A stretch of 44,715 nucleotides of DNA from Ectocarpus siliculosus. Its lineage: Eukaryota; Sar; Phaeophyceae; Ectocarpales; Ectocarpaceae. Shown here one piece after another: positions 7,449 to 43,555 of the stretch. A program made the translations under genes and the position numbers. Where the stretch lies: contig FN648780.1 in the NCBI GenBank assembly GCA_000310025.1, positions 1 through 44,715 on the forward strand. The letters run 5' to 3'. The notes beneath the pieces were generated by a model that was not told where the DNA came from, ran no database searches, and saw nothing but the letters and a program-made list of their open reading frames with translations. The stretch's first letter is position 1. Each line of letters opens with the position of its first letter.

Positions 7449-7530
7449 GTTGTTTGTGGTGTCGGCGCGTGTACTCTGTTATCACGCTCGCAGGCTCTTG
7501 TCGAGAGCGTGTTGCACAAAGGAGTGACAT
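7449..7530 (-). repeat. Leader-like repeat, copy 1 (upstream of element B gag)
   Basis: About 80 bp nearly identical to 10822-10902 (roughly 6-8 differences). It contains a 7-bp inverted repeat, CACGCTC...GAGCGTG, able to form a hairpin. On the minus strand it reads GTGATAACAGAGTACACGCG; the TGATAACAGAGT portion matches 9 of 12 bases of the classical initiator-tRNA-Met primer site TGGTATCAGAGC. Position directly before a gag ATG supports a U5/primer-site leader. The assignment is inference. Confidence 0.5.
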
Positions 7531-10821: not shown

Positions 10822-10902
10822 GTGTTTGGGGTGTGGGCGCGTGTACTATGTTATCACGCTCGCAGACTCTTGTCGAGAGCGTGTTGCACATAGGAGTGAC
10901 TC
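10822..10902 (-). repeat. Leader-like repeat, copy 2 (upstream of element C gag)
   Basis: Near-identical to 7449-7530, in the same orientation relative to the adjacent gag, with the same CACGCTC/GAGCGTG hairpin. Similarity starts and stops abruptly at both ends (after GGAGTGAC on the plus strand the two copies diverge). It lies about 320 bp upstream of the element C gag ATG. Confidence 0.5.
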
Positions 10903-12130
10903 AAGTTCCTTGCTTAATAGAGAGTTTAACGAGTGACAGACGTGAGCAAGAAGAGGCAAAGCCTGCTGCACCAAGTCTGTCTATCATACCCATATCTATC
11001 TTATCTGCGTATCCCCCTTGGAGATCTCGGAGAATTGTATCCTGCCGAGTACACACACAAACACATGTTGTCTGTGCCATTGAGAAGTGAACAGTATTCA
11101 CAAATCATCACTCCGCAGTATCGCTGGTGTTGGTATCACAACCTCCAGACGTTGAGAATGAGTGATAGATAGACCTGTGTTCACATCCCCCTGTATGACC
11201 ATGTGATGCTGGGCTTCTTCACGTGAGCTGGCGTGGGAAGGTCAACACTGACGACACGCGGTGATTGTGGTGACCACTAGCATTAAAACCGGGTACAAGG
11301 TCGGTGTGGACATGTACGTGTGCCTTGTGATATCACAGAGAACCTAAAGTGTGAAGGAAATCCCCTCAAGGTCATATCCATCGCAGAACCAAGGTGCTTG
11401 GTATGATTCATTATTCATTCTCTGGCACTAAAGACCGTTGTAACCAACAACATGACCCACACAAATGCATGGTTGTTCATGTGTGGCCCACAATGCATTT
11501 GACTTATGCATTAGTTGTATTATATACATAAAAAAAATGAACGTTGCAACCAACAACATGACCAACGACTTCCACCATCCTACACAATGTATCGGCCAAC
11601 ATCGTGCTCCGACGATCCTTCCAGGACGTACTACGTTATTCCAAGAACTTCCTCAAATACATACCAGCAATATGCCATAGATAGGCGGTTGATGTGTATG
11701 ATACATTGGCGTTCATGAGTATGATAAGCACGGTATCCTCAAAAACTATATAAACCACATCCCTACATTGTGGACACTATATGTACAACATTCCCACGCA
11801 GTCCAGTCCAACGTGTCTCATTCCTCTTCTTTGACATCCACGCTGAAGGCATACAGGCTTACTGCTTACTAGGACACCGTACTCTTCATAGATGCTCCTT
11901 TCACCGGCCCCGCAGAGCATCCCCAACCACACGGGCGGCATCCCTCTCGTCGAAGTAGCACTGCCAAAATGGCATAAACAGTGGGTTGGTGGCGTGTCCA
12001 CGCTTGGTATGCGGAGATAGCCGAAAAGGACGGGGTAAAAAAAAATGTACGAAATCTACGAACCACAGTTCGTAATCATTCCAATTTTTGGTTCCAAAGT
12101 TTCCAAATATTTGGAGTCAAATATTTGGGT
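10903..12130. other. Non-coding stretch with a weak TATA-type site
   Basis: No gene is recognised. CTATATAAACC at about 11745-11755 could be a TATA box, but no convincing frame follows. Short frames here lack domains. 10903-11110 may include part of the element C LTR, but no TG...CA boundaries could be fixed. Confidence 0.35.
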
Positions 12131-12563
12131 GCTTCATGGTGCTCCATGGAGCTCCATGGGAAAAGCGTGAAGCAATTTACAAATCAAGTCCATGGTGCTC
12201 CATGGTGGTCCATGGGAAGCGTGAGAAACACTTTACAAATCAAGTGCTCCATGGTGCTCCATGGTGCTCCATGAAGCTCCATGGGACGAGTGGATAACAT
12301 TATTGGGTCTTATCTTTTTGCTGTTTTCATGGTGCTCCATGGTGCTCCATGGTGCTCCATGAAACACCATGAATCATCATACCTCATGATGATTCATGGT
12401 GCTCCATGGTGCACCATGAAAACATGTTCATGGTAGTCCATGGTGCTCCATGGAGCACCCAAACTTTTGTCCATGGTGCACCGTGAACATTCCCATGAAC
12501 ATGTCCACGTCTTTGTCCATGGTGCTCCATGGTGCTCCATGAAAAGTGCTCTATGGGAAGCGT
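12131..12563. repeat. Satellite-like array 1 (GTGCTCCATG units)
   Basis: The core is a ~10-bp motif, GTGCTCCATG, repeated within larger units separated by spacers such as GGGAAGCGTGAGAAACACTT followed by TACAAATCAA. The same spacer appears, reverse-complemented and with about one mismatch, in array 2 at 29096-29132, so the two arrays are one family in opposite orientation. The second half of this array is enriched in CCATGG palindromes. The frames through it (HGAPWCSM-like peptides) are translation of the repeat, not evidence of a protein. Confidence 0.85.
12365..12401. repeat. Perfect 16-bp inverted repeat inside array 1
   Basis: CACCATGAATCATCAT (12365-12380) is followed after a 5-nt loop (ACCTC) by its exact reverse complement (12386-12401). 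It could form a cruciform or RNA hairpin and lies where the array changes character. It is the longest perfect inverted repeat noticed in the array. Confidence 0.85.
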
Positions 12564-28522: not shown

Positions 28523-29381
28523 CACCATGGAGCACCATGGAGAACCATGGGGCACCAAGGAGTACTTGATATAATTTGATTTTTCTACACTTACTTCCCA
28601 TCCAGCACCGTGGAGCACCATGAAGCACTTCATTTTTCATCATATTTCTACATTTTCCATGGAGCACGATGGAGAACCATCTAGCACTTGATTTGTAAAA
28701 CGTTTCACACTTACATTTCTCTCATGGAGCTCCATTGAGCACCATGGAGCACCATGAACCACTTGATATGTAAAATGTTTCATACTCTTTGCATGGAGCA
28801 CCATGGAGCACCATGGAGCTCCATGGAGCACAATATTTGTAATGTGTTTCTCACGCTTCCCATGGAGCACCATGGGGCACCATGGAGCACCACGGAGCAC
28901 TTGATGTGTATTTTCTTTCTACACTTTCCATGGAGCACCATGGAGCACCATGAAACACTTGATTTGAAAAATGTTTCACATCACTCTTCCCATGGAGCTC
29001 CATGAAGCACCATGAAGCACCATGGAGCACTTGATTTGCAAAATGTTTTACACGGTTCCCACCGAGCTTCATGGAGCACCATGGAGCGCCATGGAGCACT
29101 TGATTTGTAAAGTGTTTCTGACGCTTCCCATGGAGCACCATGAAGCACCATGGACCTGATTTGAAAATTGCTTCACGCATTTCCCATGGAGCTCCATGGA
29201 GGACCATGGAGCACCATGGAGCACATAATTTCTAAAATGTTTTCCACTTTCCCCATGGAGCACCATGAAGCACCATGGAGCACCATGGAGCAACATGGAG
29301 CACTTGATTTGTAAAATGTTTCGCATATTTTTTCCCATGGAGCACCATGAACCACTTGATTTGATAAATGTTTCACACTTT
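28523..29381. repeat. Satellite-like array 2 (CATGGAGCAC units)
   Basis: About 13 units of 55-75 bp. Each has a run of CATGGAGCAC motifs followed by a spacer like CTTGATTTGTAAAATGTTTC and a C/T-rich ACACTTCCC. It is the same family as array 1 but in the opposite orientation. The last unit is cut in its spacer by the 5' LTR of element A. Minus-strand frames encoding HGAPWCSM-type repeats change register between units. Confidence 0.85.
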
Positions 29382-29690
29382 TGTTATGGTATTTGGAGGT
29401 AGACAAGTGATCGTGGTTGATCATGGTTATTTGGCGCCGTCGGATGATGAGACGTGACGTCATGCTAGATCAGGGCTTTATGCCGAGACATGTGCCCTTC
29501 TGTTCAGTGTGTGCGTACAGGCGATCTATGATCGTGTGTGCGTGGGATATTGTGAGTTGGCTTGGAAAGCGTTAATCAAGAGAAAGAGAACAACGGAAAG
29601 CAACAACAACCTGCTACTGTGGTCGGACAAGAGAGTTCCACACAGCTCAAAGGTGATTGATTCTGAAGGAAGGGGTCAAATGCCATTACA
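29382..29690 (+). repeat. 5' LTR of element A (309 bp)
   Basis: Begins TGTTATGGTATTTGGAGG and ends CCATTACA. It is the same length as the 3' copy with 8 substitutions. It contains a perfect TGACGTCA palindrome at 29455-29462 (CRE/ATF-type, also AP-1-like) and GGCGCC nearby, which are candidate promoter elements. No TATA box is clear. Confidence 0.93.
29455..29462 (+). promoter_or_regulatory. TGACGTCA palindrome in 5' LTR
   Basis: This octamer is the consensus bZIP (CRE/ATF) site and is kept in the 3' LTR at 43320-43327, although three of the eight LTR differences fall within ten bases upstream. A role in element transcription is inferred from the motif only. Confidence 0.4.
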
Positions 29691-29691
29691 C

Positions 29692-29709
29692 TGGCGTTGT
29701 TGGTTTTGG
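29692..29709 (+). promoter_or_regulatory. Candidate primer binding site of element A
   Basis: One base after the 5' LTR, TGGCGTTGTTGG starts with the TGG expected from a tRNA CCA end. It does not match the initiator-Met site, so the priming tRNA is unknown. Confidence 0.45.
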
Positions 29710-29741
29710 TCGTGTTGCTTGATTCTTGCGTTCAATTGATT

Positions 29742-29765
29742 TTGATTTTTTTCGCTTTTTTGCAG
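29742..29765 (+). promoter_or_regulatory. Candidate 3' splice site before ORF1
   Basis: A pyrimidine-rich tract (TTTTTTTCGCTTTTTTGCAG) lies 45 nt before the ORF1 ATG and has the form of a strong spliceosomal acceptor. A donor would have to be in the LTR or leader; none is obvious. Confidence 0.35.
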
Positions 29766-29809
29766 TCTGCTGAACAGCGGCAGGGCAACAGCCTTGGCCC
29801 TGCTTCAGC

Positions 29810-30916
29810 ATGTCGGCTCCTGATGAGCCGCGAGGTAGCAGCGACTCTGCTGTCTCGACCCCGGTCCCTTTGTCGCCGCACAACACTCCTGATGATGATG
29901 ATTCGCATGCTTCGCGTAGCTCGCTCCGTGTTGATAAGGATTCGCCGAATGCCTTCTTGCATGTTCGCGGTCGGACTTTTCAGCAGCAGCAGCAGCACCC
30001 ACGATCGCGATCGCAGTTCGAACGCACGTTAGCAGACGTAGACTCTCAGGAAGATGATGTTGCACGATCGCACACTGAAGGCCTTGGTCGCGCGCCGCGC
30101 TCCAGGTCTGTGCCCTCTCGTGATTCAGCTCGCCGCTGGTCATCAGATGTGGCACACCGCCTTGAGACACCTGCAGAAATGCAGATGCGCTCGGTGGTTC
30201 AACGCGCACACTCACACCCCGCATCCAATTCCGAACACAGCAATGTGCCGAAATTGGATGGTGAAGGCTCTCGCTCTCCGATATTGATTGAAGCCTCACG
30301 CACGCACACGAATGAAGCTCACAGCTCCATTGTGCGCGTGTCGGACGCCCCCAGTGGCGCGGTCGAGTCTAGTACTCCTGCCCCTGGTAGCCCAGCTGTC
30401 GCTGTCGGCATGTTTGAACCTCAGAGTTTGAATTATTCCGACGCCAGCCCGGCTGCATCCCATTCCGAGCGCGGATATGTGCCGAATGTGGATAGTGTTG
30501 GCTCTCACTCTACAAGTTTGATCGATGCCTCACACACGCACTCGATAGGAGTTAGTAGCTCCGTCGAACGCACGTCAGAACGCACCAGCGGAGCGGTCGC
30601 CTCGAGCGATTCTGCCCCTGGTCTCGCTGTCGCAAGCCCCCGAGAAACTATCAAAACGTTCTCTCGGCTGCATGCCGACACCCCTTCTTTATCGCATTCC
30701 GAGAACACCACAAATGTTTCGGAGATGGATGGAGATGGCTCTCGCTATCAAAGTTTGAGAACCACTGCGACCTCGCAGCAGTCGGATACCCTGAGATCCG
30801 CTGACGGTGAGACACCGCAAGCCACCAGCGGCGCATTTGCTTCCAGCAACCCTGCCCCGCCTGGTGCCGCGCATGATGCACGTGACGCTGCACTTGTGTA
30901 CCCGCGTCCACAATGA
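29810..30916 (+). CDS. Element A ORF1: Ser-rich repeat protein of unknown function
   Basis: 368 codons from the first ATG after the LTR. The protein is rich in Ser, Ala, Asp and His, likely disordered, with three degenerate ~55-90-residue repeats, each with HSE..., a D-G/V-GSxS core, THT/THS and an SGAVxSSxPAPG-like end (near residues 140, 225 and 300). No enzyme motif is seen. The frame ends at UGA (30914-30916) followed by C; the same frame then stays open for about 128 codons to UAA at 31298. An extra ORF before gag is unusual in Gypsy elements. It might be an accessory or regulatory protein, or an N-terminal gag extension expressed by recoding or splicing; nothing in the sequence decides between these. 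Confidence 0.6.
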   Translation: MSAPDEPRGSSDSAVSTPVPLSPHNTPDDDDSHASRSSLRVDKDSPNAFLHVRGRTFQQQQQHPRSRSQFERTLADVDSQEDDVARSHTEGLGRAPRSRSVPSRDSARRWSSDVAHRLETPAEMQMRSVVQRAHSHPASNSEHSNVPKLDGEGSRSPILIEASRTHTNEAHSSIVRVSDAPSGAVESSTPAPGSPAVAVGMFEPQSLNYSDASPAASHSERGYVPNVDSVGSHSTSLIDASHTHSIGVSSSVERTSERTSGAVASSDSAPGLAVASPRETIKTFSRLHADTPSLSHSENTTNVSEMDGDGSRYQSLRTTATSQQSDTLRSADGETPQATSGAFASSNPAPPGAAHDARDAALVYPRPQ

Positions 30917-31300
30917 CGTGAATACACAGACAGCGAATATGTTCCGACTGGCAACCATGCTTCTGCCCCTGTTAGTACCGATGCAATTGCAGGCACAGAC
31001 GTAGAACCTGTATCTAGTGTATCTTTACCCGCCGTAGACGAAGATCGTACCCCTACAGCAGCCCCCCCTCTCCCATTTGCACCCACACGCGTGCAAACTA
31101 CGAGTATGCCTGTTATTAGACGGTCACGGCGTCTAGCTGGTAAACCACCATCTGACGCTCTCGATCTAGCACGATCAACGGCCGCTCCAAGGCTTCCTGT
31201 GCCTGCCCATGAAATTACCGAAAAACGACTACACCCAGTTGTACCCCATGGTAAAATGCAATCTCGTCTGTTGGACCTTCACCCAGCTCACCGGCTCTAA
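30917..31300 (+). CDS. Element A ORF1 downstream extension after in-frame UGA
   Basis: Same frame as ORF1, 127 sense codons with no stop until UAA. It contains a Pro/Val/Ala-rich part, then VIRRSRRLAGKPP, a basic motif that could be a nuclear-localisation or nucleic-acid-binding segment. Continuity of composition with ORF1 suggests that both once formed, or still form, one protein. The UGA could be a CGA-to-TGA mutation or a leaky stop. An ATG exists inside (31091), but no initiation signal is evident. Confidence 0.45.
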   Translation, partial: REYTDSEYVPTGNHASAPVSTDAIAGTDVEPVSSVSLPAVDEDRTPTAAPPLPFAPTRVQTTSMPVIRRSRRLAGKPPSDALDLARSTAAPRLPVPAHEITEKRLHPVVPHGKMQSRLLDLHPAHRL

Positions 31301-31643
31301 TGAGCATGGTTTGCAGCAGGCTCGCCCTTACCTTTCGGGGTATGGTTCGCAGAGCCCCTCGCTCACCGATCCTACGGGATTTGGTTCGACGCGAAACCCT
31401 CCCACCGACTCACAGGGGTTCGGTGCGGAGCCCTCGCTCACCGATCCTACGGGATTTGGTTCGACGCGAAACCCTCCCACCGACCCACAGGGGTTCGGTG
31501 CGGAGCCCTCGCTCACCGATCCTACGGGATTTGGTTCGACGCGAAACTCTCCCACCGACCCACAGGGGTTCGGTGCGGAGCACACGCTCACCGGTCCTTC
31601 GGGATTTGGTTCGCAGCGCATGGCGCTCACCGGCTCGAATTAG
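31209..31643 (+). CDS. Element A: 25-residue repeat frame leading into gag
   Basis: About 144 codons in the same frame as gag. From residue 49 it is four tandem copies of a 25-residue unit (EPSLTDPTGFGSTRNPPTDP plus QGFGA), the last one diverged. It ends at UAG (31641-31643), which is followed by C; 14 open codons later comes the gag ATG. It may be an N-terminal gag extension behind a leaky stop, or a decayed 5' part of gag. It overlaps the end of the ORF1 extension (31209-31300) in a +1-shifted frame. Confidence 0.45.
   Translation: MKLPKNDYTQLYPMVKCNLVCWTFTQLTGSNEHGLQQARPYLSGYGSQSPSLTDPTGFGSTRNPPTDSQGFGAEPSLTDPTGFGSTRNPPTDPQGFGAEPSLTDPTGFGSTRNSPTDPQGFGAEHTLTGPSGFGSQRMALTGSN
31353..31640 (+). 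repeat. 75-bp tandem repeat, ~3.8 copies
   Basis: Units begin at 31353, 31428, 31503 and 31578. The first three differ at only a few bases; the fourth diverges in its second half. The period is a multiple of three, so the coding frame is kept. Confidence 0.9.
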
Positions 31644-31685
31644 CTTGGTTCCGAGCCCCAGCACGCCGGCCCTGCGGGGCACGGT

Positions 31686-34391
31686 ATGCCATACCAGCAG
31701 CAAGGGCTGTTGCTGAATCCACCACTGTCCATCGCTAGAGGTGGTTATGTGGTACCGCCCCCGGCCCAACCGTCATACAGCCAAATGGCGCAAGGACCGC
31801 CGGATCTCAGCCTCCGAACGGGGGATGAATTGTTCCTTGACATTCCGGTGTCTAACTTCGCGCACGTACACCAGCAGGCCTTCACGGAAGCATGCAGGAT
31901 ACAAGTCACCAAGGCGGCTACAGTGCTGACGACAATGTTAGAAAGCTCGGAGAGACCCACTGTCACTCTCCGTGAATTCATGCATCACGTCGCTCATGCC
32001 CCTACGGTAGACGCCCCGTTAGTCGAATCGGTAACGCGTCTGCTGCACGGGCTCAGAGGAGGTTACGCTAACCTTACAGGTGGCTACCGTCCGACGGAGG
32101 TCAACTGGTACCTTCCCCCTTCGATTCTGCCAACGACGTTTGGTGCTTCTGCAGCATTCGCCAAGCAGACGGGCGATTTCCGTGTCGTCACTCACCGCAA
32201 GGTGAAGAAGGAGCGCGCTACCGACAGCAGCAGCTCCCACAGCCGTGGCAGCCGTGGTCGTGGTAGTGGTCGAGGTTCTTCCAGCAACCGTGGACGTGGT
32301 AACCATAACGGTCACCGTCAACGTGGTTCGCGAGGGTCGCGCTCTTCCGCAGCTAGCGAAAGTGACGCGTCGGCTTCCGTGGCCGCCAGCAGCTCCAAAA
32401 GATCGAATCGAGGCAAACGTGGCAAGAAGCGCTCTGGGTCCAACGGCCGCCGAGAGGAGGTCGCTGTGGAACGCAAGCCTTCGGCGACTAAAAGCGTCAG
32501 CAAGGAGGACACGAGTCGTGGCCGCCGTCGTAGCCGGAGTCATAGCAGGAGCTGTAGCCCACGCCGCCGCGGACACCGCCGCGGGCACCGAAGCAGCGAC
32601 GGCTCGGAGGCACCAGCCTACGAGGATCACTCCCCGGAGGAGATCTTTGACGCAAACCAACCGCACCTGACCACCGATCTTCCACTGGAAGAGCGTCTGG
32701 ACCAACCCCTGACAGCCCCGCGAGATGACAGGCAAGTACCGTTGTTGGGTGATGTCGCAGCCAGCGACCACTCATTGATGTCACGCAACAGTGCATTCGT
32801 AGGCCATAACGCCCAACCGTTGTCGTCAACGACTGCTCGTGCTCGCCAAGTAGAGATAGACAAGGCTGACGCGCTTGCAGAAGCTGCACGAATCAGAGAG
32901 ATCAGTGCGAAGTACATCAAGACGAAGTTTAGGGATATTCGTATACAACCATCGATCCATTGGCCGGCAAACCTGAAACAGGCAGTGCCGCAGTTGTTAG
33001 ATTCTATCAAGGCTGCAGCCTTAGATGTCTTGCAACAGGCTGACCCTTTCATCGATTTTGACAAATCCGATACGTGGGTTCGCGGGTGGGAAAACCCGCT
33101 GAAGAAAGCCATCATTAGCGCCGTATCCCCAAACAAGCAAACCACTGGTGACCTTATCAGCTCTATCAATGGTATGTTTGTGCAGGTGAAGCAGCGTATG
33201 GACGACGGTATGAACGGAGGAGAAGCTTTCAAGCACCTTCTTCGTCTGATCGCGTCCCACTTCAAGCATGAAGACCGTGGAGACGCCTTGACAACGCTGA
33301 ATGCGTTCGGTGTTCCCAACGGAACTACGTTTGGAGAATTTTTGCGACAGTATCGTACTGCCGTGAACAACATCACGCACTATTCCAGTCTTTTTAGCAT
33401 TAACGAGACTTGGATTGTCGGGATCACAAGGAATAAGATCAACGACCAGTTTTCTGTGATGATGTCTGACTGTTTTCCGGGTGCAAAGCGTACCGCGGCA
33501 GAACCCTACAGTAGTCTGGATGAGATGTGGCGAGTGCTGAATGAGTTCACGACCTCTAAGGTTAAGGCAGAGAATGGCGAGCAATATGCTGCGCTCTCGC
33601 TTAGTGGATTATCGTTGCATTCGCAAGGCGGTAGTCGTTCTCAAGGACGTTCGACGACGCAATCGCAGCAGCCTTGGAGCTCCCAGGGAGCACGTGGCAA
33701 ATCGGTCATGCGTGTTAAGGCAGAGCCAATTCATGATGTGTTTTGTGTTAGCTACGATGCTTGGCCGCTGGCCACCGATGATCATTGGGAGACAGTGCAT
33801 GCTGTTGTTTCCAGTGGTTTCAAACGTCAACTCCCCCCCCTTTGGACACCACTCCTTAGGACTAGAGCTGACCGAGCACAAGCGTTCAGCGCGAATGCTG
33901 GCCGTTGTTTAAACTGTCACGGGTCTGGCCACTCCATCAAACACTGTGAACAGCCTTTCACCAATGCTAGTGGTGTCCTGAACCCAGATTTAGGTGCACT
34001 GACTGATGGTGATGACATGTTTCGCCTGTGGCAAGAGCGCTTGCGGTCCTGGAGGACTAAGCCTGCGACTGCCACAACACACGGCTCACGCAACTCGAAT
34101 GGCCAACAAAACCGGCGCCGTTCCCACAGACCAGCTCATAGAGTTCAATACGCTGGTAACGCTCCAAACCCGCAACAATACACTCAGACGTGGCATCAAC
34201 CGCCACCACAGGGCCTGCTGCAATCTAGTGCACCAGCCCAACAGCACACATTGGTAGCATACCAGCCTCATGCAGGTACTGCTCCAGCGTCTGCCACACA
34301 CGCGCAGCCGGCGTTAAGAATCAACAGCCGACTCCCCGTAGACTCCAACCCAAATGCCCGCACTCCTGGAACGTATAAGGCTGGTAACTGA
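31686..34391 (+). CDS. gag: Element A Gag: capsid/nucleocapsid with RS-rich region and CCHC knuckle
   Basis: 901 codons. Residues 1-170 are mixed with helices. About 180-330 is Arg/Ser/Gly-rich (GSRGRGSGRGSSSNRGRG and SRSHSRSCSPRRR), resembling RS/RGG RNA-binding regions. About 400-660 is helical and fits a retrotransposon capsid (DALTTLNAFGVPNGTTFGEF, then LRQYRTAVNNITHY). A zinc knuckle CLNCHGSGHSIKHC lies at C741-C744-H749-C754 (CX2CX4HX4C), the nucleocapsid finger that packages RNA. The Gln/Pro/Ala-rich tail ends at UGA 34389-34391. The ATG at 31686 is the first in frame after the UAG at 31641. Pol follows in the same frame. Minus-strand frames over the RS-rich part are shadows. Confidence 0.85.
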   Translation: MPYQQQGLLLNPPLSIARGGYVVPPPAQPSYSQMAQGPPDLSLRTGDELFLDIPVSNFAHVHQQAFTEACRIQVTKAATVLTTMLESSERPTVTLREFMHHVAHAPTVDAPLVESVTRLLHGLRGGYANLTGGYRPTEVNWYLPPSILPTTFGASAAFAKQTGDFRVVTHRKVKKERATDSSSSHSRGSRGRGSGRGSSSNRGRGNHNGHRQRGSRGSRSSAASESDASASVAASSSKRSNRGKRGKKRSGSNGRREEVAVERKPSATKSVSKEDTSRGRRRSRSHSRSCSPRRRGHRRGHRSSDGSEAPAYEDHSPEEIFDANQPHLTTDLPLEERLDQPLTAPRDDRQVPLLGDVAASDHSLMSRNSAFVGHNAQPLSSTTARARQVEIDKADALAEAARIREISAKYIKTKFRDIRIQPSIHWPANLKQAVPQLLDSIKAAALDVLQQADPFIDFDKSDTWVRGWENPLKKAIISAVSPNKQTTGDLISSINGMFVQVKQRMDDGMNGGEAFKHLLRLIASHFKHEDRGDALTTLNAFGVPNGTTFGEFLRQYRTAVNNITHYSSLFSINETWIVGITRNKINDQFSVMMSDCFPGAKRTAAEPYSSLDEMWRVLNEFTTSKVKAENGEQYAALSLSGLSLHSQGGSRSQGRSTTQSQQPWSSQGARGKSVMRVKAEPIHDVFCVSYDAWPLATDDHWETVHAVVSSGFKRQLPPLWTPLLRTRADRAQAFSANAGRCLNCHGSGHSIKHCEQPFTNASGVLNPDLGALTDGDDMFRLWQERLRSWRTKPATATTHGSRNSNGQQNRRRSHRPAHRVQYAGNAPNPQQYTQTWHQPPPQGLLQSSAPAQQHTLVAYQPHAGTAPASATHAQPALRINSRLPVDSNPNARTPGTYKAGN

Positions 34392-34430
34392 CAGCCCAAC
34401 GGCGGCTTGTCGTTACTCCCCGACCCGCCG
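34389..34430 (+). promoter_or_regulatory. Candidate gag-pol UGA readthrough signal with 3' hairpin
   Basis: UGA (34389-34391) is followed by CAGCCC, which matches the leaky-stop context CARYYA at five of six positions. After an 8-nt spacer a hairpin can form: CGGCGG (34400-34405) pairs with CCGCCG (34425-34430), a 3-nt bulge CTT follows, GTCG (34409-34412) pairs with CGAC (34421-34424), and the loop is 8 nt. The spacer equals that of gammaretroviral UAG readthrough signals. Gag and Pol are in one frame with no other stop, so readthrough would yield Gag-Pol directly. Confidence 0.6.
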
Positions 34431-37400
34431 ATGGCAAAACAGGGAGCAGCTAGATATGTGTCGCAGGATGCGCGTATAGTAGGTACGGTCGAGTGTACCA
34501 CTCCTGTTCCTACAACCGACACTTCCGCTACAAGCGGTAGTGCTTCGACCTCATCGGGTGAAGATGGTGTAGCCCACACTCCCGATCACGGCAGCTTCAG
34601 CGCTGTCGTCAATGCATATACCCCAAGGTTAGGAACTCAAGGAGCGACCTGTCTTGAAGGCGGCTCCCCGAGTTTTAACACAGCTCGAGCAGCTTGCACA
34701 CGCGGCAGCTTCAGCGCTGTCGTCAGTAAATATACCCCAAGGTTAGGAACTCAAGGAGCGACCTGTCTTGAAGGCGGCTCCCCGAGTTTTAACACAGCTC
34801 GAGCAGCTTGCACAACCCATGATTACACCACGTTGCCGCCCGCAAACCAGCCTGAACCATTACGTGTTGGCTACACGAATGCAAGGGTCGGTTTGAGGTG
34901 CGGGTACGGAAGGTCGGGATTGTCGAGCATGCCCAAGAGGTCCGCTCAGACGTCCTCGTGGAAGACCGTTAAGACACCTACGTTGTCGACAATACATGAA
35001 GTGTCGCCGGGTTTAGCCACCTCGAGCGATGCTTTGGACATGTCCACTACGTACGGGTCATCGACAGCCTGCGGCGATACAGCCGATGGAACTCGAGACG
35101 GTAATAAAAGTCACTCGCCGCACGGTGAAGCGAGTATGACCGATTGCGTTGAAAGAAATACGCGTCGATTTCCCGTGGTTTGCGATTCGCGGAGTACCAA
35201 AACTGAGCGGTCCCCAACCGCGACCACGGAGGTGCTGACAACACCGTATTCGGAGGACGCTCCGATTGCGCCCCTCGCTGAACAAACAGCGAAAAACTCG
35301 CGACCCTCGTCAAGGGAGGTCCGTCATGTCTCCAACGTGATGGATTCTAGCGAAAGCACTACAGACTATACACCCCCACCGGGTTGCGCTGTTGGTAGAG
35401 TAGAGGACTTGGGGAAACAGACATCCCCCTCCTCCGCTATAGCTGGTATTCGTATCTACCCTCCTCCTCCGACCGACGCCAGGTGTTCACCACCAGCGTT
35501 TGATCCGAGCAAGGAGTACTGCACACCTGACATGGTGTTGTTCTGGCAAGCCCCGTCGTTTTTCTCGCAATGGACGCCCTCCGTCTTTACTGTAGATGGT
35601 GTGGAATACTCTTGTGGAGAACAATTCTTCGCGGCTGCCAAGGCTCGTCTCTTTGGCGACCAAGATACGTTGCGGCGGATTATGCGTGTTTCTGACCCGA
35701 TTAAACATAAGCGTTACGGACGCCAAGTTAAAGGGTTTGATGAAGCTGTTTGGGAGCGCGAGCGTGAAAACGTGGTGCGTGTCGCCTCCTACTACAAATT
35801 TTCGCAAAATCCCGCTATGCGACAACATCTTTTGGGCACCGGCGACAAAATGCTCGTCGAAGCTAGCCCATTCGATGCCATATGGGGCATTAGACATCGC
35901 GCGGATTATCCTGCTGCAATCCAACCCTCTTTATGGCGGGGCTCCAATCTGCTCGGCAAAAGCCTGCAGGTTGTTCGAGACCTACTCCGAGAGCACGCGC
36001 CGACGCCGACACTTCCACCACAAGTTTCGTCCGACGCTCAGCTCCGGAATACAATACATGAGGTTAACCCTGCAACGCAAGAGCGTATTTCGACGGCTGC
36101 CGCCGAGGAGGCCGCCCCGTCGTCAGGTTACCGCATAAAATCAGCGCATGTTCCAAGGGATCACAGCGCTGAAGTTCTCGCGGTTACGTCCGCTGAGTAT
36201 CATGAGGAAGATCGTGTACCGTTGCTCGCTGAGCATGGTCCTTGCCTCGTAGGTGGTGTTGTTACAGTTGACGACGCTTCATTTACGACTCGAGTCAAAA
36301 TCCACGCTGGGCCAGCCAAATCACAATATGGTTGCGCCGCTCTGCTCGATTCAGGATCACCGGCCACGTTCATCAACAGCAACGCTGTCGGTACCCTCAA
36401 AGCCATGGGAGCCATCTCAGAGGCTTGCATATCGCACGGTAACTCACGTTCTTGGGGAGGTTTTGGTAAATCCGAGTCTCTTCAGACGTCTGATACAGTC
36501 CGTCTGAGTGTGCAATTTTTCCACGGTGATACGCCTTCGGCTTCTCTTGCCGTTTGGGCGCACATCGTCCCTGCAAACACCATGCAGTTTCCCATCCTAT
36601 TGGGACGCGATAGTTTCATGCGATTTAACACTCGCACGTACCGTATGTTGCCTCCGAGGCCACTGGACAATCGCGTTTTTGGTGAATATACGCTTGCCCA
36701 CCAGGATGATTCTGATGCGGTCGCGTATGTGCCCGATTTCACAGCCCCGGCGGACCAATTCCAGCTCCGTTATGCAGGGCCAACGGGTACTTCATTGTCA
36801 GACGACCACCAAATGATTGAAGTCAACTTGGTGCGTTCCAACGGTACACCGGCTCTGACCGGTCAATACCTTGTCGACATGTTGCCTGATGTTTCGTCGA
36901 ACGAAGAGATCTTTGTCTCCGACGGACGTCAGTTTGTGCCGCTCGCGGGCGCTGCAGAACTTGAGCCAGGAGACTTGCTCGGTACTGCTGCCGCCCCGCT
37001 GATGCGCGTCCCGGTAGAGCATTTAGAACAACAGTTTAGTGACGAAGCTGACACTTCATGTTCGGTGCCTGGACCTATTTTGGGTTCTACCGAGGATAAC
37101 GCGGACAGGACCGTCGATCCGCAGGTGCGTTGCCACGATCCCTTCGTGCACAACCTACGATCCACCGATCCTCCTGTGCCGGACCCAGGGAAATCACCCC
37201 CTGCGGCCCCTGCCCCCGCTCACACTTCGCCCTCGCCGCCACCACAGCATGTGATGGAGCGGTTGAGCGCTGAACAGCGAGTTAGCTTTGAGTCATTGTG
37301 GAATCGCTTGCCGCCTCACCTGAAGTTGGTTAAGTTTGATTTACACGGTCCTGGTTGGTCACCAGAGGTCATCACAGAACTTGGTGATCTTTGGCATAAT

Positions 37401-40400
37401 TTCCAAGACGTGTTTTCCACATCCTCGACGGATTTAGGGTCCTGTTCCCTGATGCCGTTTGAGATCAAAGTACCTCCGGATTGTCCCCCGGTGACGTCCA
37501 AACCGTACCGTATGAATCCTTTGGTTGCGAAGCAAGTCGATGCCATTTTGGACCAGTATCTAGCTGCTGGCCTAATTCAGCACTCGACCTCTCCTTATTC
37601 CAGCCCCATCGTGGTTATACCAAAGAAGTCTGGTGGAATACGCATCACGGTTAACTACCGAAAGTTGAACCATATCAGCAGCTTTGGTCAACTTCCCATC
37701 CCCCGAGTCGACGAGATTCTAACGAAACTCAACAGAGGTTCGATTTTCTCGTTATTCGATTTCACGGGTTCTTTCCACCAGATCACTGTCCACAAGGACA
37801 CTATCCCCCTTACGGCTTTTGCGACCCCCACTCGTTTGTTCGAATGGCTCCGCATGCCGATGGGTGCTAGCCAATCCGCAGGCCACTTTGTAAAAGTGAT
37901 TAACGAAGTAATCAAAGGACTCGATGGAGTCGAGGCATACCTCGATGACGTCGTTGTTTTTGACGAAGGCCCACTGCAGCATGTCCGTAATATGCGCACG
38001 CTCTTCGAACGGTTGAGAAAGTACGACCTCCAACTTTCTCCCTCGAAAGCCACCATCGGTACCACCAAGGCTGACTTCTTGGGGCACACCATATCTTCGA
38101 AAGGTGTCCTCCCCAACGCCCGTAAAGTAGCCGCCCTGGCAGGTATGCCCATGCCGACGACCGTCAAGCAACTCAGGTCACTCATGGGTGGTCTGAGCTA
38201 CTACCGACGTTTCCTCAGAGACATGGCCAAGCGTGTGAAGTCCGTTACGCACTTGCTCAAAAAAGGTGTTCCCTTCGCTTTCACGAGCGACATGGAAACA
38301 ACTGTTCGCAGCCTACTGGCTGAGCTCGCGAAACCGCCCATTTTAGTGTTTCCTGATTGGGACGCTATTGCGGACGGTACACGCCCTTTACGTCTTTGCT
38401 GTGACGCCAGCTCCGACGGTCTCGGCGCCGCGCTGGAGCAAGAGCAGAAAGACGGCTCGGTACGGCCGATCGTTTTCATCAGCAGAGCCACGCTCGAAGC
38501 TGAACGCAACTGGACCGCTCTCGATCTCGAAGCAGGAGCCGTTGTATGGGCGATCAAGCGTCTCCGCGAATACCTTCGTGGCACACACTTCCGCATCTAT
38601 TCCGACAATAAGGCGCTGGAAAGTTTGTCAAAAATCAGCGAGCACAACCCACGCGTCCAACCCTGGATTGAGTTCCTTGAAGCATACAGCTACACGTTGG
38701 AGTACCGACGAGGTGCCTCCAACGGAAACGCTGACATGCTGTCTCGTCTGCCGATTGAGCCTACTGCCGCCGACATCAACGGTAACTGTCGTTTGACGTC
38801 CCCAGAAGACGTTGGTGTGTATCTGATCCGAGCGACAGGTCACGCACCACCCGGACAAACCACGCCTGGCGTTGGTTTGGGTGGGCTGGCGCCCCCGAGC
38901 GAGAACGCCGCTCTGGGTGGGCTACCCCTCACTTCCGATGATTTTGCGGATTTTCGCAAACACGGGCCTCGAATGAGGATTGACGACCTTGATGCTCCTG
39001 CAGGAGAATTCGTCGCTCGTGTTTTTCCGTGCGTCAATGCGCGAGGACCTTTGCGACACCTTGCGGACGATCGTGCATTGTCTTGCACCGACCACTCCGT
39101 ATTTGCTGTGCCTGAGGTTATTTCCGCTGCAACCCAGAAAAAACAGGGCGCTGTGCCGGAACTCCGGTCTTCAGCTTCTCCTGTTGTGTCTCCGATGAGA
39201 CCATTGTATAGGGACACCGCCACGGTTTACGGACCGTCTGCGCGACCCCACACGGATACAGCTGCATTTGCGCTCCCTGTCCACGGCACACAGACCGCCG
39301 ACGATAACTCTCGGTTGCCCCCTGTCGTGTCTCCTGCGACCGCAACTGTCGACGCCGGCTCCCACTCTGATCGTTTGGATGCCGCCGACTCATTGCCGCC
39401 GCCTTCGACCTCTCGGTTGCAACCGCATCGTATTGATCCGTCGGAACTGATCTCTACTCGTACGCGTCGCCGAACCGCGGCTGCTGCGGGTCAGCCTCAA
39501 CCCGATGTAAACTACGGTTTCGGTCCTGATTTGTCGATCCCCCCACACGTTCCGCGTGCAGGCGCTTCTCGTCGTCAAACACGAGTGACACCAGCTGCCA
39601 CCACGCCTGAGCCTGCTGTCGAACCTGTCCCAACGGTGCCTATAGCGCCGCCCGAGACAGTTACCGACGCCCCTACGGGTCCTCTGTTGGGTTTGTCACA
39701 ACCGGCTGCTGCAGCTGGTAAGGCAACGCCCGCAGTGGATTCCATGGTCCTCAATCCTGCAGAGTTAGAATTCCGTGAGTCCGTCGAACGCTACACGCGT
39801 GCCGATTGGGCGCGGGAACAGCAGAAAGAGCCGGTGTGTGAAGCCACCATCCGCTACATTCTCCTCAAACGCCCTCAGAGTCTACCTGTCGATTTCTTTG
39901 CCAGAGTGTCATATCACTCCAGGCATAGACCCTCGTTGGAGGATATTCGAGAGCTTGCAGATAAAGGACGCCTCGTCACTGACGATGGCCTTTGCCTCTT
40001 GGTACGAAAGAATACCAAGCCCCTGGTCTCTTCTGACCGTCCCGGAGGACGAGCTGCACGTCTGTTGAATGACGAACCCACTCGTATTTACGTGCCCATG
40101 TTAATGCGACCTTGGGTCATGCAAGCTTGTCATGCCAACGCCCTCTGCCACCTTGGTACCGCTCGCACGCTCAGCTTGCTTGAGAGGTTTTACTGGTGGA
40201 TTGGGATGAGTATCAGTACTCGTTGGTGGATTCGGCGATGTTTGAAATGTCAGGCCCGCAAAACTGCGCGCCAGACTATTCGCTGGCCGATTCTCACGAT
40301 CCCTCTGCCTTCGGCACCAGGGGTCGCGATTAGCGTCGACTATTTTGGTCCGCTTCCCACAACTCCGCGAGGTTTCTCGTATATTTTGCTATTCACTGAC

Positions 40401-42005
40401 CGTTTCAGTCGGAGAGCCAATATGTACGCAGTGACTGACGCCGAGTTCACAGCTGAAGGTACAGCTGACGTCCTTGTCAATAAATACATGCCTGTTTGGG
40501 GATGCCCCCTCAGCATTCTTTCTGACAACGGATTGCAGTTTTGCTCCAAACTGTCGGTTGCCATCTTAAAATTGCTACGCGTCCGAAAAATTACGACGAG
40601 CGCGCACCACCCTAGCGGCAACGGAGGAGTTGAGCGCGTGAACCACACCATGGCCCAGATGCTGGCAATGGTTGTGAACGAACGACAAGATGATTGGGAC
40701 ATTCATCTCCCTCATGTTGAATTCGCGTACAACAACTCCGTTAGCGCTGCCACAGGATTGGCGCCCAATGAGGTGCATATGGCGCGCCTTCCCAGGTTTC
40801 CACTGACCGTTTTTGACAACATTTACGCTCGTGGTCACCAGTCGCTTGCCCGCGATCAGCTCGAGTATTGCAACCTTGCCGCCGATCGGCAACGGCGCTC
40901 CTACGAGCTAGTGCGTGAACAACACGAACTCACAGTTTCCCGTATGGAAAGACGGAACTCGAAACTGTCTGATGCCTTACACAAACTACCCGTTTACGCC
41001 ACCGGTGGATGGGTGTGGGTCTACAACCATTTGGCTACCATCCGCCAAGGTGCCAAACTCACTTCCAAGGCCCGCGCAGACGCTGACTCCCAGGTACTCA
41101 AGAAGAAGCTGTCCTTGAATTGGACAGGTCCTTTTAAAATCCTAGCAGTCGGTCCTTGCAACAAGGCTCCCGATGGCAGCCCGATGGCTGACAAGCTCCT
41201 GTTCTTGGATCTTCCCTCCGATATGCCCGGAGTGGATGCCAAGCGCCGAGTTTCTGTCGCTCGTTGCAAACCGTGTGCGAACCCGCACGATAGTGACGAC
41301 ATGCCTCGGTTCTTGCCTGCAGGCCTCACGCAGTATGTTCTCAACAACTTCACGACGAAGTCTCCGCCGTACCATGTTGCCGCGGACGATGTTTCGGCGC
41401 CTGTCCGCAGGCTCGAGGTTGAGAAAATCACGGGACACCAGTCGGTTCGAGGACGTGGCGGCGTTATCGCAGTCATGTACGAGACCCACTGGAAAGGTCT
41501 TCTGCGGCCCTCGTGGGAACGAGAAATGGACCTCCAACACTCCCGAAAACAGATTCTTCTGTATTGGGCTGGTACACCCGACCAACACCGGCAGACTAAC
41601 CGTCTGTATCGTCGCATGCGCATTGGCGCAGCGGAACGTGAACTGTCTCGCATCAAAGGCGAGCGGTCCTCGTCGCCTGGGTACGAATATGTCCCCCGCG
41701 ATGTTTGGGCCCGCCGTTTTCGCAACACCGTGCTGCCTGTTGGCGCACACTTCTGGTACAAGGCTCAAGACGCTCTGTGGTGGCTAGGGAAAATCTCCGG
41801 ACATACTCCAACTACAAACGTCTTCGTCGTTCGCTTCCTGGATGACCCTGGACCTGTCAAGATCACCCTCTCCCCTTCGCGCTACACGACAGCTTTGGGA
41901 GCTGTTTGTGGTTCTTGGTGCCTTCAGCTGCACCGAAGTAGTCCCTTCATGCGAGGTATCTTACGCAATATAGACGAGTCGCGTGGTACGGCTATAGATG
42001 CCTGA
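34392..42005 (+). CDS. pol: Element A Pol: NADAR, protease, RT, RNase H, integrase, chromo- and Tudor-like
   Basis: 2,537 codons open after the gag UGA (first ATG 34431; residue numbers here count from the TTG at 34407). 1-375: low-complexity, with a 38-residue duplication. 376-530: NADAR. 620-745: aspartic protease, catalytic D648 in LLDSGSPATF, then ILLGRDSF. 1020-1250: RT with YLDD at 1178-1181. 1328-1450: RNase H with D1333, E1375 and D1400. 1450-1850: Pro/Ala/Thr-rich spacer. 1900-2130: integrase with an H-x5-H...CLKC finger and D1978, D2040 and E2076 (D-x35-E), then GPF near 2241. 2333-2390: chromodomain-like. 2447-2500: Tudor-like. All catalytic residues are present. It would be made as Gag-Pol by readthrough and cleaved by its own protease to copy and integrate the element. 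Duplications, NADAR and spacer make it much longer than the usual ~1,200-1,500 residues. Confidence 0.9.
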   Translation, partial: QPNGGLSLLPDPPMAKQGAARYVSQDARIVGTVECTTPVPTTDTSATSGSASTSSGEDGVAHTPDHGSFSAVVNAYTPRLGTQGATCLEGGSPSFNTARAACTRGSFSAVVSKYTPRLGTQGATCLEGGSPSFNTARAACTTHDYTTLPPANQPEPLRVGYTNARVGLRCGYGRSGLSSMPKRSAQTSSWKTVKTPTLSTIHEVSPGLATSSDALDMSTTYGSSTACGDTADGTRDGNKSHSPHGEASMTDCVERNTRRFPVVCDSRSTKTERSPTATTEVLTTPYSEDAPIAPLAEQTAKNSRPSSREVRHVSNVMDSSESTTDYTPPPGCAVGRVEDLGKQTSPSSAIAGIRIYPPPPTDARCSPPAFDPSKEYCTPDMVLFWQAPSFFSQWTPSVFTVDGVEYSCGEQFFAAAKARLFGDQDTLRRIMRVSDPIKHKRYGRQVKGFDEAVWERERENVVRVASYYKFSQNPAMRQHLLGTGDKMLVEASPFDAIWGIRHRADYPAAIQPSLWRGSNLLGKSLQVVRDLLREHAPTPTLPPQVSSDAQLRNTIHEVNPATQERISTAAAEEAAPSSGYRIKSAHVPRDHSAEVLAVTSAEYHEEDRVPLLAEHGPCLVGGVVTVDDASFTTRVKIHAGPAKSQYGCAALLDSGSPATFINSNAVGTLKAMGAISEACISHGNSRSWGGFGKSESLQTSDTVRLSVQFFHGDTPSASLAVWAHIVPANTMQFPILLGRDSFMRFNTRTYRMLPPRPLDNRVFGEYTLAHQDDSDAVAYVPDFTAPADQFQLRYAGPTGTSLSDDHQMIEVNLVRSNGTPALTGQYLVDMLPDVSSNEEIFVSDGRQFVPLAGAAELEPGDLLGTAAAPLMRVPVEHLEQQFSDEADTSCSVPGPILGSTEDNADRTVDPQVRCHDPFVHNLRSTDPPVPDPGKSPPAAPAPAHTSPSPPPQHVMERLSAEQRVSFESLWNRLPPHLKLVKFDLHGPGWSPEVITELGDLWHNFQDVFSTSSTDLGSCSLMPFEIKVPPDCPPVTSKPYRMNPLVAKQVDAILDQYLAAGLIQHSTSPYSSPIVVIPKKSGGIRITVNYRKLNHISSFGQLPIPRVDEILTKLNRGSIFSLFDFTGSFHQITVHKDTIPLTAFATPTRLFEWLRMPMGASQSAGHFVKVINEVIKGLDGVEAYLDDVVVFDEGPLQHVRNMRTLFERLRKYDLQLSPSKATIGTTKADFLGHTISSKGVLPNARKVAALAGMPMPTTVKQLRSLMGGLSYYRRFLRDMAKRVKSVTHLLKKGVPFAFTSDMETTVRSLLAELAKPPILVFPDWDAIADGTRPLRLCCDASSDGLGAALEQEQKDGSVRPIVFISRATLEAERNWTALDLEAGAVVWAIKRLREYLRGTHFRIYSDNKALESLSKISEHNPRVQPWIEFLEAYSYTLEYRRGASNGNADMLSRLPIEPTAADINGNCRLTSPEDVGVYLIRATGHAPPGQTTPGVGLGGLAPPSENAALGGLPLTSDDFADFRKHGPRMRIDDLDAPAGEFVARVFPCVNARGPLRHLADDRALSCTDHSVFAVPEVISAATQKKQGAVPELRSSASPVVSPMRPLYRDTATVYGPSARPHTDTAAFALPVHGTQTADDNSRLPPVVSPATATVDAGSHSDRLDAADSLPPPSTSRLQPHRIDPSELISTRTRRRTAAAAGQPQPDVNYGFGPDLSIPPHVPRAGASRRQTRVTPAATTPEPAVEPVPTVPIAPPETVTDAPTGPLLGLSQPAAAAGKATPAVDSMVLNPAELEFRESVERYTRADWAREQQKEPVCEATIRYILLKRPQSLPVDFFARVSYHSRHRPSLEDIRELADKGRLVTDDGLCLLVRKNTKPLVSSDRPGGRAARLLNDEPTRIYVPMLMRPWVMQACHANALCHLGTARTLSLLERFYWWIGMSISTRWWIRRCLKCQARKTARQTIRWPILTIPLPSAPGVAISVDYFGPLPTTPRGFSYILLFTDRFSRRANMYAVTDAEFTAEGTADVLVNKYMPVWGCPLSILSDNGLQFCSKLSVAILKLLRVRKITTSAHHPSGNGGVERVNHTMAQMLAMVVNERQDDWDIHLPHVEFAYNNSVSAATGLAPNEVHMARLPRFPLTVFDNIYARGHQSLARDQLEYCNLAADRQRRSYELVREQHELTVSRMERRNSKLSDALHKLPVYATGGWVWVYNHLATIRQGAKLTSKARADADSQVLKKKLSLNWTGPFKILAVGPCNKAPDGSPMADKLLFLDLPSDMPGVDAKRRVSVARCKPCANPHDSDDMPRFLPAGLTQYVLNNFTTKSPPYHVAADDVSAPVRRLEVEKITGHQSVRGRGGVIAVMYETHWKGLLRPSWEREMDLQHSRKQILLYWAGTPDQHRQTNRLYRRMRIGAAERELSRIKGERSSSPGYEYVPRDVWARRFRNTVLPVGAHFWYKAQDALWWLGKISGHTPTTNVFVVRFLDDPGPVKITLSPSRYTTALGAVCGSWCLQLHRSSPFMRGILRNIDESRGTAIDA
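34590..34817 (+). repeat. 114-bp tandem duplication in pol N-terminus
   Basis: 34590-34703 and 34704-34817 are nearly identical (38 codons each, GSFSAVV...YTPRLGTQG). Two or three base changes lie in the first third, and the frame is preserved. The near-identity implies a recent duplication. Confidence 0.92.
35532..35996 (+). other. NADAR (YbiA-like) domain inside element A pol
   Basis: Pol residues about 376-530 contain the full NADAR signature in order: MVLFWQAPSFFSQW, FTVDGVEYSCGEQFFAAAKA (conserved Glu at E405), a D-P-x-x-x-K-x-x-G-R segment, a Trp-x-x-x-R-x-x-V segment, YYKFSQNPAMRQHLLGTGDK, LVEASPFDAIWGI (WG at 493-494) and LWRGSNLLGKSL...VRDLL. NADAR proteins (Pfam family formerly DUF1768) include E. 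coli YbiA, an N-glycosidase acting on riboflavin-pathway intermediates, and members reported to remove ADP-ribose from guanine. Every hallmark residue I can identify is intact. It sits upstream of protease in the same frame, so it is a domain of the polyprotein and not a separate gene. Its role in the element is unknown. Confidence 0.88.
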
Positions 42006-42098
42006 TAGCACTGTTGCCTTGTTTTCCTTGTTTTATGTGTATGTATATGTATGTGTATATGTTTGTGTGTTACATGTTTGTGTTTATGTATGTTTGTC

Positions 42099-42360
42099 TG
42101 TATGTTTCTAGCTCGCCCTCTCGATCTATTTTCGAGACTGGCTATTGCTTCTGTATGTTTCTAGCTCGCCCTCTCGATCTATTTTCGAGACTGGCTATTG
42201 CTTCTGTATGTTTCTAGCTCGCCCTCTCGAATATTTCGAGACTGGCTATTGCTTCTGCACGTTTCTAGCTCGCCCTCTCGAATATTTCGGGACTGGCTAT
42301 TGCTCCTTTATGCTTTCCGCTCGCCCTCTCAATCTCTTTGAGACTGGCTCTTGCTTTTGT
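42099..42360 (+). repeat. Five tandem ~53-bp units with conserved hairpin
   Basis: Units start at 42099, 42152, 42205, 42256 and about 42308. The shared skeleton is TTTCTAGCTCGCCCTCTCGA, variable loop, TCGAGACTGGCTATTGCTTC. The stem TCTCGA/TCGAGA is perfect in units 1-3, has a G-U wobble in unit 4 (TCGGGA) and is TCTCAA/TTGAGA in unit 5, a compensatory double change. Loop sequence varies freely. Confidence 0.88.
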
Positions 42361-43234
42361 GTTGCGTACTTTCTCGCCCCGTTGTCACTGCTCGGTCGGT
42401 TGTCGAAAGTTTTCGCTCCCCTTTCCCTATTTTTCAATGCGACCTAGGTTCGTCATTAGTTGCGGTGACGCCCAAATTTGGTGCATCGTTTAACTCCCCC
42501 CGCCTATGGTTTGCTTCGCATATTTTTGGTCCAACGTTCCGCCAGTGCTTCTATTGTATGCCACGGCCAGCGTGTTCCATCTTGGTACTTTCTTAAGCAT
42601 TTTTCTTGATGCAATTGGCCTTGACGTACAAGTAGGATTGTTTTCCTCGCCCCACCCCGATCGCAAGCACGTTGTATCGTGACATGTGAACGTTGTTTTT
42701 GGCGTTGGTTCCTGTCCTTTTCTTTGGCCGTTGTTTACGTTCCCGGAAACCCCCTCTTTCCCTGCTTTTCTCGATTTGGGTCGACCCCTAACGGTTTTCC
42801 ATGTCGTTTGATCCTTTGCAGGCTCGGTTTTCGTTTCTTTTTATTTATGTTTACATTTCAGCACTCGATCGCATCGTAGCCCCCTTCCCCGTAAGGTTCT
42901 GGCTTACTTGATTGCGTATTCGATCGGTTCATTCGTACGAGATCGTTTGTGATTTTCCCTTCACGATTTCGTTACTTCGTGTTATGGTCTTTTCGGGTTC
43001 GGATGTTTTGGTTATTTTTCGCACCCCATGTGCCTTTTTTCGATTTTATCCGCCGACTATGCCGCCCCGGCTTCTTCTGTGTTTTCTTCTTTCTTGGTTC
43101 CGCTTCTTGGTTTGGTTAACGGAGAGGTGCGGGTAAGAATTTTGAGTTGTCGTATCTTCGATCCATCCCGCAAACCTCTTGATTGACTAGAGTCCCTCCG
43201 AGATTTGCTTCTGTATCTGCATCTACGTCCACTC

Positions 43235-43246
43235 AGGGTGGGCTAT
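43235..43246 (+). promoter_or_regulatory. Weak polypurine tract before 3' LTR
   Basis: CAGGGTGGGCTATT precedes the LTR. The purine run AGGGTGGG is short and interrupted by CTATT before TG, so the plus-strand primer assignment is weak. Confidence 0.3.
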
Positions 43247-43555
43247 TGTTATGGTATTTGGAGGTAGACATGTGATAGTGGTTGATCATGGTTATTTGGC
43301 GCCGTCGGATGCTATGACGTGACGTCATGCTAGATCAGGGCTTTATGCCGAGACATGTGCCCTTCTGTTCAGTGTGTGCGTACAGGTGATCTATGATCGC
43401 GTGTGCGTGGGATATTGTGAGTTGGCTTGGAAAGCGTTAATCAAGAGAAAGAGAACAACGGAAAGCAACAACAACCTGCTACTGTGGTCGGACAAGAGAG
43501 TTCCACACAGCTCAAAGGTGATTGATTCTGAAGGAAGGGGTCAAATACCATTACA
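43247..43555 (+). repeat. 3' LTR of element A (309 bp)
   Basis: Same length and ends as the 5' LTR, with 8 substitutions, three of them clustered just before the TGACGTCA palindrome (43320-43327). In this copy those changes create a second upstream TGACG half-site. Confidence 0.93.

Follow-up and report, generated by a model that had tools for sequence, protein, structure and literature searches.

Element structure

The window, a 44,715-nucleotide stretch of Ectocarpus siliculosus contig FN648780.1, contains a 14-kb LTR retrotransposon on its forward strand (29382-43555; Table 1). The two LTRs are identical at 305 of 314 bases, in an alignment slightly longer than the 309-bp LTRs themselves, and their ends are near-palindromic (TGTTATGG...CCATTACA), with the TG...CA ends present. 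No perfect target-site duplication was seen; the flanking CACTT and CACTC are identical at four of five positions, a comparison that depends on where the LTR edges are set. Pfam, at an E-value of 0.01, gave no match for the 901-aa gag-like ORF or for the 368-aa ORF that precedes it. An earlier reading of this locus from its letters (the sequence-only reading) had described the element as recent and apparently intact. The LTR identity and the open gag and pol frames agree with that description, within the limits set by the missing perfect duplication and by the 368-aa ORF ahead of gag.

Gag and pol share one frame, separated by a UGA stop. The exact flanks of this stop were located in 21 of the 25 window-family copies (30 loci looked at) and were not found in the other four; all 21 have TGA. 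The order protease, reverse transcriptase (RT), RNase H and integrase in Pol is that of Ty3/Gypsy elements (Metaviridae), with the protease recognized by motif only; its region had no match in the Pfam scan of pol. A weak match to the chromodomain profile PF00385 (E from 0.0025 to 0.11) recurs in all five family Pol tails scanned. Past this putative chromodomain, a conserved block at 41736-41885 (W-Y-K ... W-L-G-K-I ... V-R-F-L-D ... P-G-P) looks Tudor-like by eye and has no Pfam match.

Table 1 Coordinates of the retrotransposon and of the NADAR residues compared with P. nicotianae NADAR
Feature	Position in window	Strand	Remarks
5' LTR	29382..29690	+	309 bp; alignment to 3' LTR
368-aa low-complexity ORF, between 5' LTR and gag, other frame	29810..30916	+	
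gag-like ORF, 901 aa	31686..34391	+	
CCHC zinc knuckle within gag-like ORF	33906-33947	+	
UGA stop separating gag from pol, frame shared on both sides	34389..34391	+	
pol open frame, 2537 codons stop-to-stop	34392..42005	+	
NADAR domain, pol aa 379-528	35541..35990	+	PF08719, TIGR02464
E405 (E43 of P. nicotianae NADAR)	35619..35621	+	kept in 53/54 copies
K412 (K50, phosphate contact)	35640..35642	+	kept in 53/54 copies
E485 (E125, YbiA-subfamily catalytic glutamate)	35859..35861	+	kept in 54/54 copies
D490 (D130)	35874..35876	+	kept in 53/54 copies
W493 (W133)	35883..35885	+	kept in 52/54 copies; stop at the site in the other two
Aspartic protease motifs LLDSGS ... ILLGRD	36342..36617	+	read by eye
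Reverse transcriptase, pol aa 1071-1229	37617..38093	+	PF00078 E=3e-23
YLDD box of RT	within 37935-37955	+	
RNase H, pol aa 1325-1427	38379..38687	+	PF17917 E=8.5e-30
Integrase, H2C2 zinc domain and catalytic core	40092..40613	+	PF17921 E=7.2e-13, PF00665 E=1.7e-8
Putative chromodomain, Pol C-terminus	41415..41567	+	PF00385 E=0.0025, under Pfam cut-off
3' LTR	43247..43555	+	alignment to 5' LTR

A complete NADAR domain in Pol

Between the N-terminal linker and the protease, in the same frame as RT, RNase H and integrase, pol encodes a NADAR domain. It matches PF08719 at 151.4 bits against a cut-off of 35.1 (E=3.4e-44), over positions 2-163 of the 163-position profile. The top NCBIfam model is TIGR02464, a riboflavin-intermediate N-glycosidase, matched by pol aa 377-527 at 136 bits against a cut-off of 73.7 (E=1.2e-39). 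The sequence-only reading had claimed a complete NADAR domain in frame, N-terminal of the protease, and had proposed a profile search as a check; the significant match to nearly the whole of PF08719 bears this out. The signature blocks that it had placed, namely E405, the W493-G494 pair and W-x-G-x-N-x-L-G, were all found where it had put them.

Active-site residues were mapped by alignment to the solved NADAR of Phytophthora nicotianae (8bau; E=4.7e-17, residues 9-121 of the 155-aa query), with residue numbers from PMC11543638, to which the 8bau chain numbers add two at all five sites. All five of the active-site residues checked are matched in the window domain. Over the aligned residues there is no large insertion and no evident nucleic-acid-binding extension; extra elements are described for the P. 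nicotianae protein in excerpts of PMC11543638. A glutamate at the E125 position, not Asp or His, marks the YbiA subfamily according to the same excerpts. Judged by its profile matches and residues, the pol domain is a complete NADAR domain of the YbiA subfamily. P. nicotianae NADAR and E. coli YbiA (2b3w) belong to this subfamily too, but neither lies in a polyprotein.

Residue counts were made on 55 distinct copies, 54 of them with the NADAR domain aligned. A loss of catalytic residues in other copies, which the sequence-only reading had considered, was not what we found, as each is kept in 52-54 of the 54 picked copies, a sample that favours intact copies (the 30 best-scoring matches, with the rest picked by hand, many for long open frames).

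Spread in the Ectocarpus genome

The genome (189 Mb in 492 contigs) was searched with domain and RT queries. At least 151 NADAR matches were found, and the 150 listed fall into families at about 88-100, 67, 57 and 53% identity; 123 of these 150 are free of stops. The RT search was scored at 111 of 622 first-look candidates, and 96 of these 111 places have a listed NADAR match in the 8 kb upstream, on the strand of the RT; the distance is 1962-2135 bases in 91 of the 96. No listed NADAR lies within 8 kb upstream at the remaining 15. The single one of these 15 that was read (L050/L074) has none in its pol piece or in a further 5.5 kb upstream. Conversely, for 54 of the 150 listed NADAR places no RT is listed in the 8 kb that follow. 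A stand-alone host NADAR gene was sought among these 54 and rejected for the six that were read (L080-L085), all of which adjoin pol matches. A host ribD-like gene is represented by three exon-size matches, and the NADAR queries found nothing in these three loci.

The four best matches among the fetched copies are 95.3-95.7% identical over 492-494 aa to the protein P0005 and 94.5-94.9% identical over 567-568 aa to P0139, both from Ectocarpus sp. CCAP 1310/34. In one family C copy (L058, C89:161521-161976), RT is 67% identical to that of the window but NADAR only about 51%, and the copy forms a long branch within its family; the low NADAR identity may reflect rapid change in this one copy or a shift in how it was read.

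The sequence-only reading knew of no LTR element with this architecture. The same arrangement has in fact been published for Ectocarpus: an article in Genome Biology of September 2025 (PMC12477816) describes a YbiA-type NADAR at the Pol N-terminus throughout one Ty3/Gypsy lineage and suggests that it takes part in the processing of the RNA intermediate. NADAR in Pol is thus not new as a type of architecture and, very probably, not new for the host genus. As in that lineage, for example Gypsy-12_Ec32, NADAR in the window element is N-terminal in Pol. A C-terminal chromodomain is named for Gypsy-12_Ec32; the window Pol has the below-cut-off PF00385 match at that end. None of the words catalytic, readthrough and dN dS turned up in the main text of PMC12477816. 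What we add is the NADAR-RT spacing across the genome, the residue conservation and the constraint between subclades. Two other articles, PMC6679389 and PMC9594970, were discarded as NADAR papers, "NADAR" there being author names.

A 391-aa Ectocarpus NADAR protein, Esi0017_0056, is described in excerpts of PMC7922944 as stress-induced and as improving salt and heat tolerance in Arabidopsis. As a guess, this protein may derive from a NADAR-Gypsy element, as a fragment of one or as a gene model on it, and one may ask whether some of the NADAR genes published for Ectocarpus belong to retrotransposons.

Selection on the NADAR domain

dN/dS was estimated after Nei and Gojobori, with intervals from codon resampling. 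In the window family (dS about 0.03), NADAR gave 0.64 (0.39-1.21) for 23 copies and 0.59 (0.32-1.24) for 15 copies that overlap those 23; RT gave 0.54 (0.38-0.78) and the linker about 1. As both NADAR intervals include 1, constraint on NADAR in this young family is not demonstrated. Lower values were obtained in family D (0.17, 0.07-0.38; eight copies) and family B (0.22, 0.07-0.79; four copies).

Family C has two subclades, which are silent-saturated between them and nearly identical within, so that its pooled dN/dS of 0.175 mixes the two and pairwise figures are preferred. Across the 155 NADAR codons, four pairs differ by 54-58 nonsynonymous and 76-78 synonymous changes. Between subclades dN/dS is 0.06-0.08 for NADAR, 0.06-0.07 for the protease, 0.03 for RT, 0.04 for RNase H (three pairs, the fourth not being computable) and 0.21-0.23 for the linker; with silent sites near saturation these figures are rough, and the four pairs, which all span this one divide, amount to a single comparison. 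By these estimates, NADAR is held at protease-like constraint, at least between the family C subclades, which suggests that the domain has been kept by selection. The dN/dS check proposed in the sequence-only reading therefore came out divided, with strong constraint between the subclades but, in the window family, a NADAR interval that includes 1 while that of RT lies below it.

Origin of the domain

A NADAR tree of 71 rows unites all 18 rows from the genome with 11 Gypsy Pol rows of other origin and six short metagenome proteins (99/96); five further short proteins, from protist or metagenome sources, join this group (95/96). The next branch, weakly supported (84/71), holds Streptomyces and allied rows. 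Streptomyces NADAR is 55% identical to that of the window, and the viral and phage NADARs listed are no nearer. A known viral donor was rejected, since the best virus-contig NADARs (among 80 of 552 listed) are 48% identical to the window domain, as was a phage donor, the best phage NADARs (among 8 of 692 records listed) being less than 50% identical.

In an RT tree of 57 rows, every one of the 28 taken to be NADAR-bearing Gypsy elements belongs to a single group of 38 rows (100/100), next to which stands a nine-row group (100/99) with NADAR listed in none. Five of these nine rows, with 704-1124 residues upstream of RT, gave no NADAR match at an E-value of 10, and the other four have 168-520 residues there, too short or borderline for NADAR. 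Among the 120 proteins listed, RT identity is at least 58% in 20; a NADAR is precomputed for 11 of them and for none of the other 100. In seven of the nine remaining high-identity proteins, the stretch ahead of RT is 228-397 residues long and could not accommodate NADAR; of the other two, P0143 gave a partial match to NADAR (E=4.3e-7) and P0130 seems to be a chimeric gene model. Since all nine are short, partial or chimeric-looking, absence of NADAR inside the lineage is not established. A single capture of NADAR near the root of the brown-algal Ty3/Gypsy lineage fits these trees best.

For three proteins of the nine-row RT group, the annotation gives another nucleic-acid-modifying domain in Pol, a cytosine DNA methylase: it is listed for P0151 (E=2.1e-5) and P0153 and appears in the name of P0154.

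Other retroelement-like proteins with NADAR

A search for such carriers gave seven proteins, three of them of brown-algal type. P0006 is, like the window protein, a Ty3-type Pol with NADAR (E=2.7e-38), but its NADAR lies between RNase H and integrase, its RT is 23% identical over 515 aa, and a Macro-like stretch precedes the domain (PF01661 E=0.0012, NF001667 E=1.6e-4, both below cut-off). A PDB sequence search with this Macro-like piece gave nothing informative. P0008 has NADAR and an RT match (E=2.1e-15). P0009 combines NADAR with a sub-threshold tyrosine recombinase match (E=5.8e-5) and with deoxynucleoside kinase, Nudix and SET matches, and P0007 resembles it over 919 and 350 aa, with a weaker recombinase match (E=0.042). 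When pieces of P0007-P0009 were run against Pfam, the weak P0007 recombinase was the sole match; RT in P0007 and P0009 and the recombinase in P0008 are putative, from motifs read by eye. All four, P0006-P0009, may be gene models that span element borders.

An AU test did not reject a tree with P0006-P0009 all grouped with the Gypsy NADARs (p=0.10), nor one with P0007 (0.085), P0008 together with P0009 (0.085) or P0006 (0.31) so grouped individually. The differences among these proteins in NADAR position and element type call for separate insertions and support separate captures, of which the tree gives no proof. NADARs are also reported in excerpts of PMC12477816 from ORF1 of Crassostrea gigas Tx1 LINEs, likewise in a retrotransposon protein, but these elements are non-LTR, the protein is another one and the domains are described as divergent. 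It is conceivable, if doubtful in our view, that NADAR is a counter-defence captured recurrently by retroelements, namely by the Gypsy lineage, P0006, P0008, P0007/P0009 and the oyster LINEs. Should this be true, the implication would be a eukaryotic defence, so far undescribed, by which guanines in the RNA or cDNA of retroelements are ADP-ribosylated.

Possible function of the Pol NADAR

We tentatively favour, at not quite an even chance, a scenario in which a YbiA-type NADAR was captured once by an ancestor of these brown-algal Ty3/Gypsy elements, was kept by selection and removes ADP-ribose from guanines of the element RNA or cDNA. To judge from the frame alone, the domain would be made within Gag-Pol by read-through of the UGA. 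Placed ahead of the protease, it would be packaged along with the element RNA and could be freed by the protease at maturation. It would then hydrolyse ADP-ribose off guanine bases in the RNA or cDNA, undoing a modification, by the host or a competing enzyme, that would otherwise block reverse transcription. The sequence-only reading had likewise suggested that a host ADP-ribose-type modification of the element RNA or cDNA is undone, a reasonable hypothesis; its alternative, that nucleotide pools are altered during reverse transcription, may also hold. Tested YbiA-type NADARs strip ADP-ribose from guanine in DNA (excerpts of PMC11543638 and PMC11125620), and tested NADARs do so in RNA (excerpts of PMC11833690). 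Polyprotein NADARs of eukaryotic RNA viruses, which share a polyprotein with a polymerase as here, but an RNA-dependent RNA polymerase, have been proposed to counter host ADP-ribosylation (excerpts of PMC9503650).

Four exon-size PARP matches, two of which have an internal stop, and one partial Macro match were found in the genome; DarT and KptA gave no match in a search that can miss intron-split genes. To our knowledge, guanine ADP-ribosylation has not been reported in brown algae, nor do we know of a described brown-algal defence that ADP-ribosylates retroelement RNA or cDNA. If NADAR does clean the element's own nucleic acid, it would itself be evidence of such modification in these algae.

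The main rival is that NADAR acts on small molecules around the particle (ADP-ribose signals, riboflavin intermediates or nucleotide by-products) and not on nucleic acid. The top NCBIfam model fits such a role, as does the lack of an evident nucleic-acid-binding extension in the 8bau alignment; E. coli YbiA, of the same subfamily, cleaves riboflavin intermediates (excerpts of PMC11543638), and phage NADARs have been proposed to destroy diffusible ADP-ribose signals and low-molecular-weight derivatives (excerpts of PMC9503650). We nevertheless consider it unlikely, as the NADAR representatives tested in PMC11833690, as excerpted, were all active on guanosine-modified RNA, and riboflavin clean-up would bring the element no plain benefit; the weak Macro match beside the P0006 NADAR also points to ADP-ribose over riboflavin. 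NADAR might instead mainly bind ADP-ribose marks and, with the putative chromodomain of the same Pol, steer particles or integration complexes to PARP-active chromatin. Chromatin readers are common among Ectocarpus Gypsy elements (excerpts of PMC12477816), but the hydrolysis-linked residues are kept and NADAR sits at the opposite end of Pol from the integrase, which makes such a binding role improbable.

The window-family dN/dS could also be read as that of a functionless passenger carried between selected domains. This seems very improbable given the retained active-site residues, the presence of NADAR across families saturated at silent sites and, above all, the protease-like constraint between the family C subclades. 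For an assembly join, or a host exon mistaken for element sequence, we found no support and see practically no chance: such an artefact is ruled out by the same arrangement, about 2 kb from RT, at 91 places in the genome, and the arrangement recurs in proteins from other sources.

Other features of the window

Rfam and tRNA scans gave nothing informative. A second retroelement has left remains at 2305-3848 on the reverse strand, where two frames give matches to RT and Ty3-type RNase H. A copia-type gag ORF (8406-10220, reverse strand) matches PF14223 just below cut-off (E=5e-6); it is flanked by direct repeats at 7451-7528 and 10823-10900, which are 94% identical, and resembles the gag-only Copia families described in excerpts of PMC12477816. 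Adjoining the 5' LTR of the NADAR-bearing element is a tandem array (28657-29407) of about 70-bp units rich in CATGGAGCACCATGG, and an inverted copy lies about 17 kb away, at 12128-12301.
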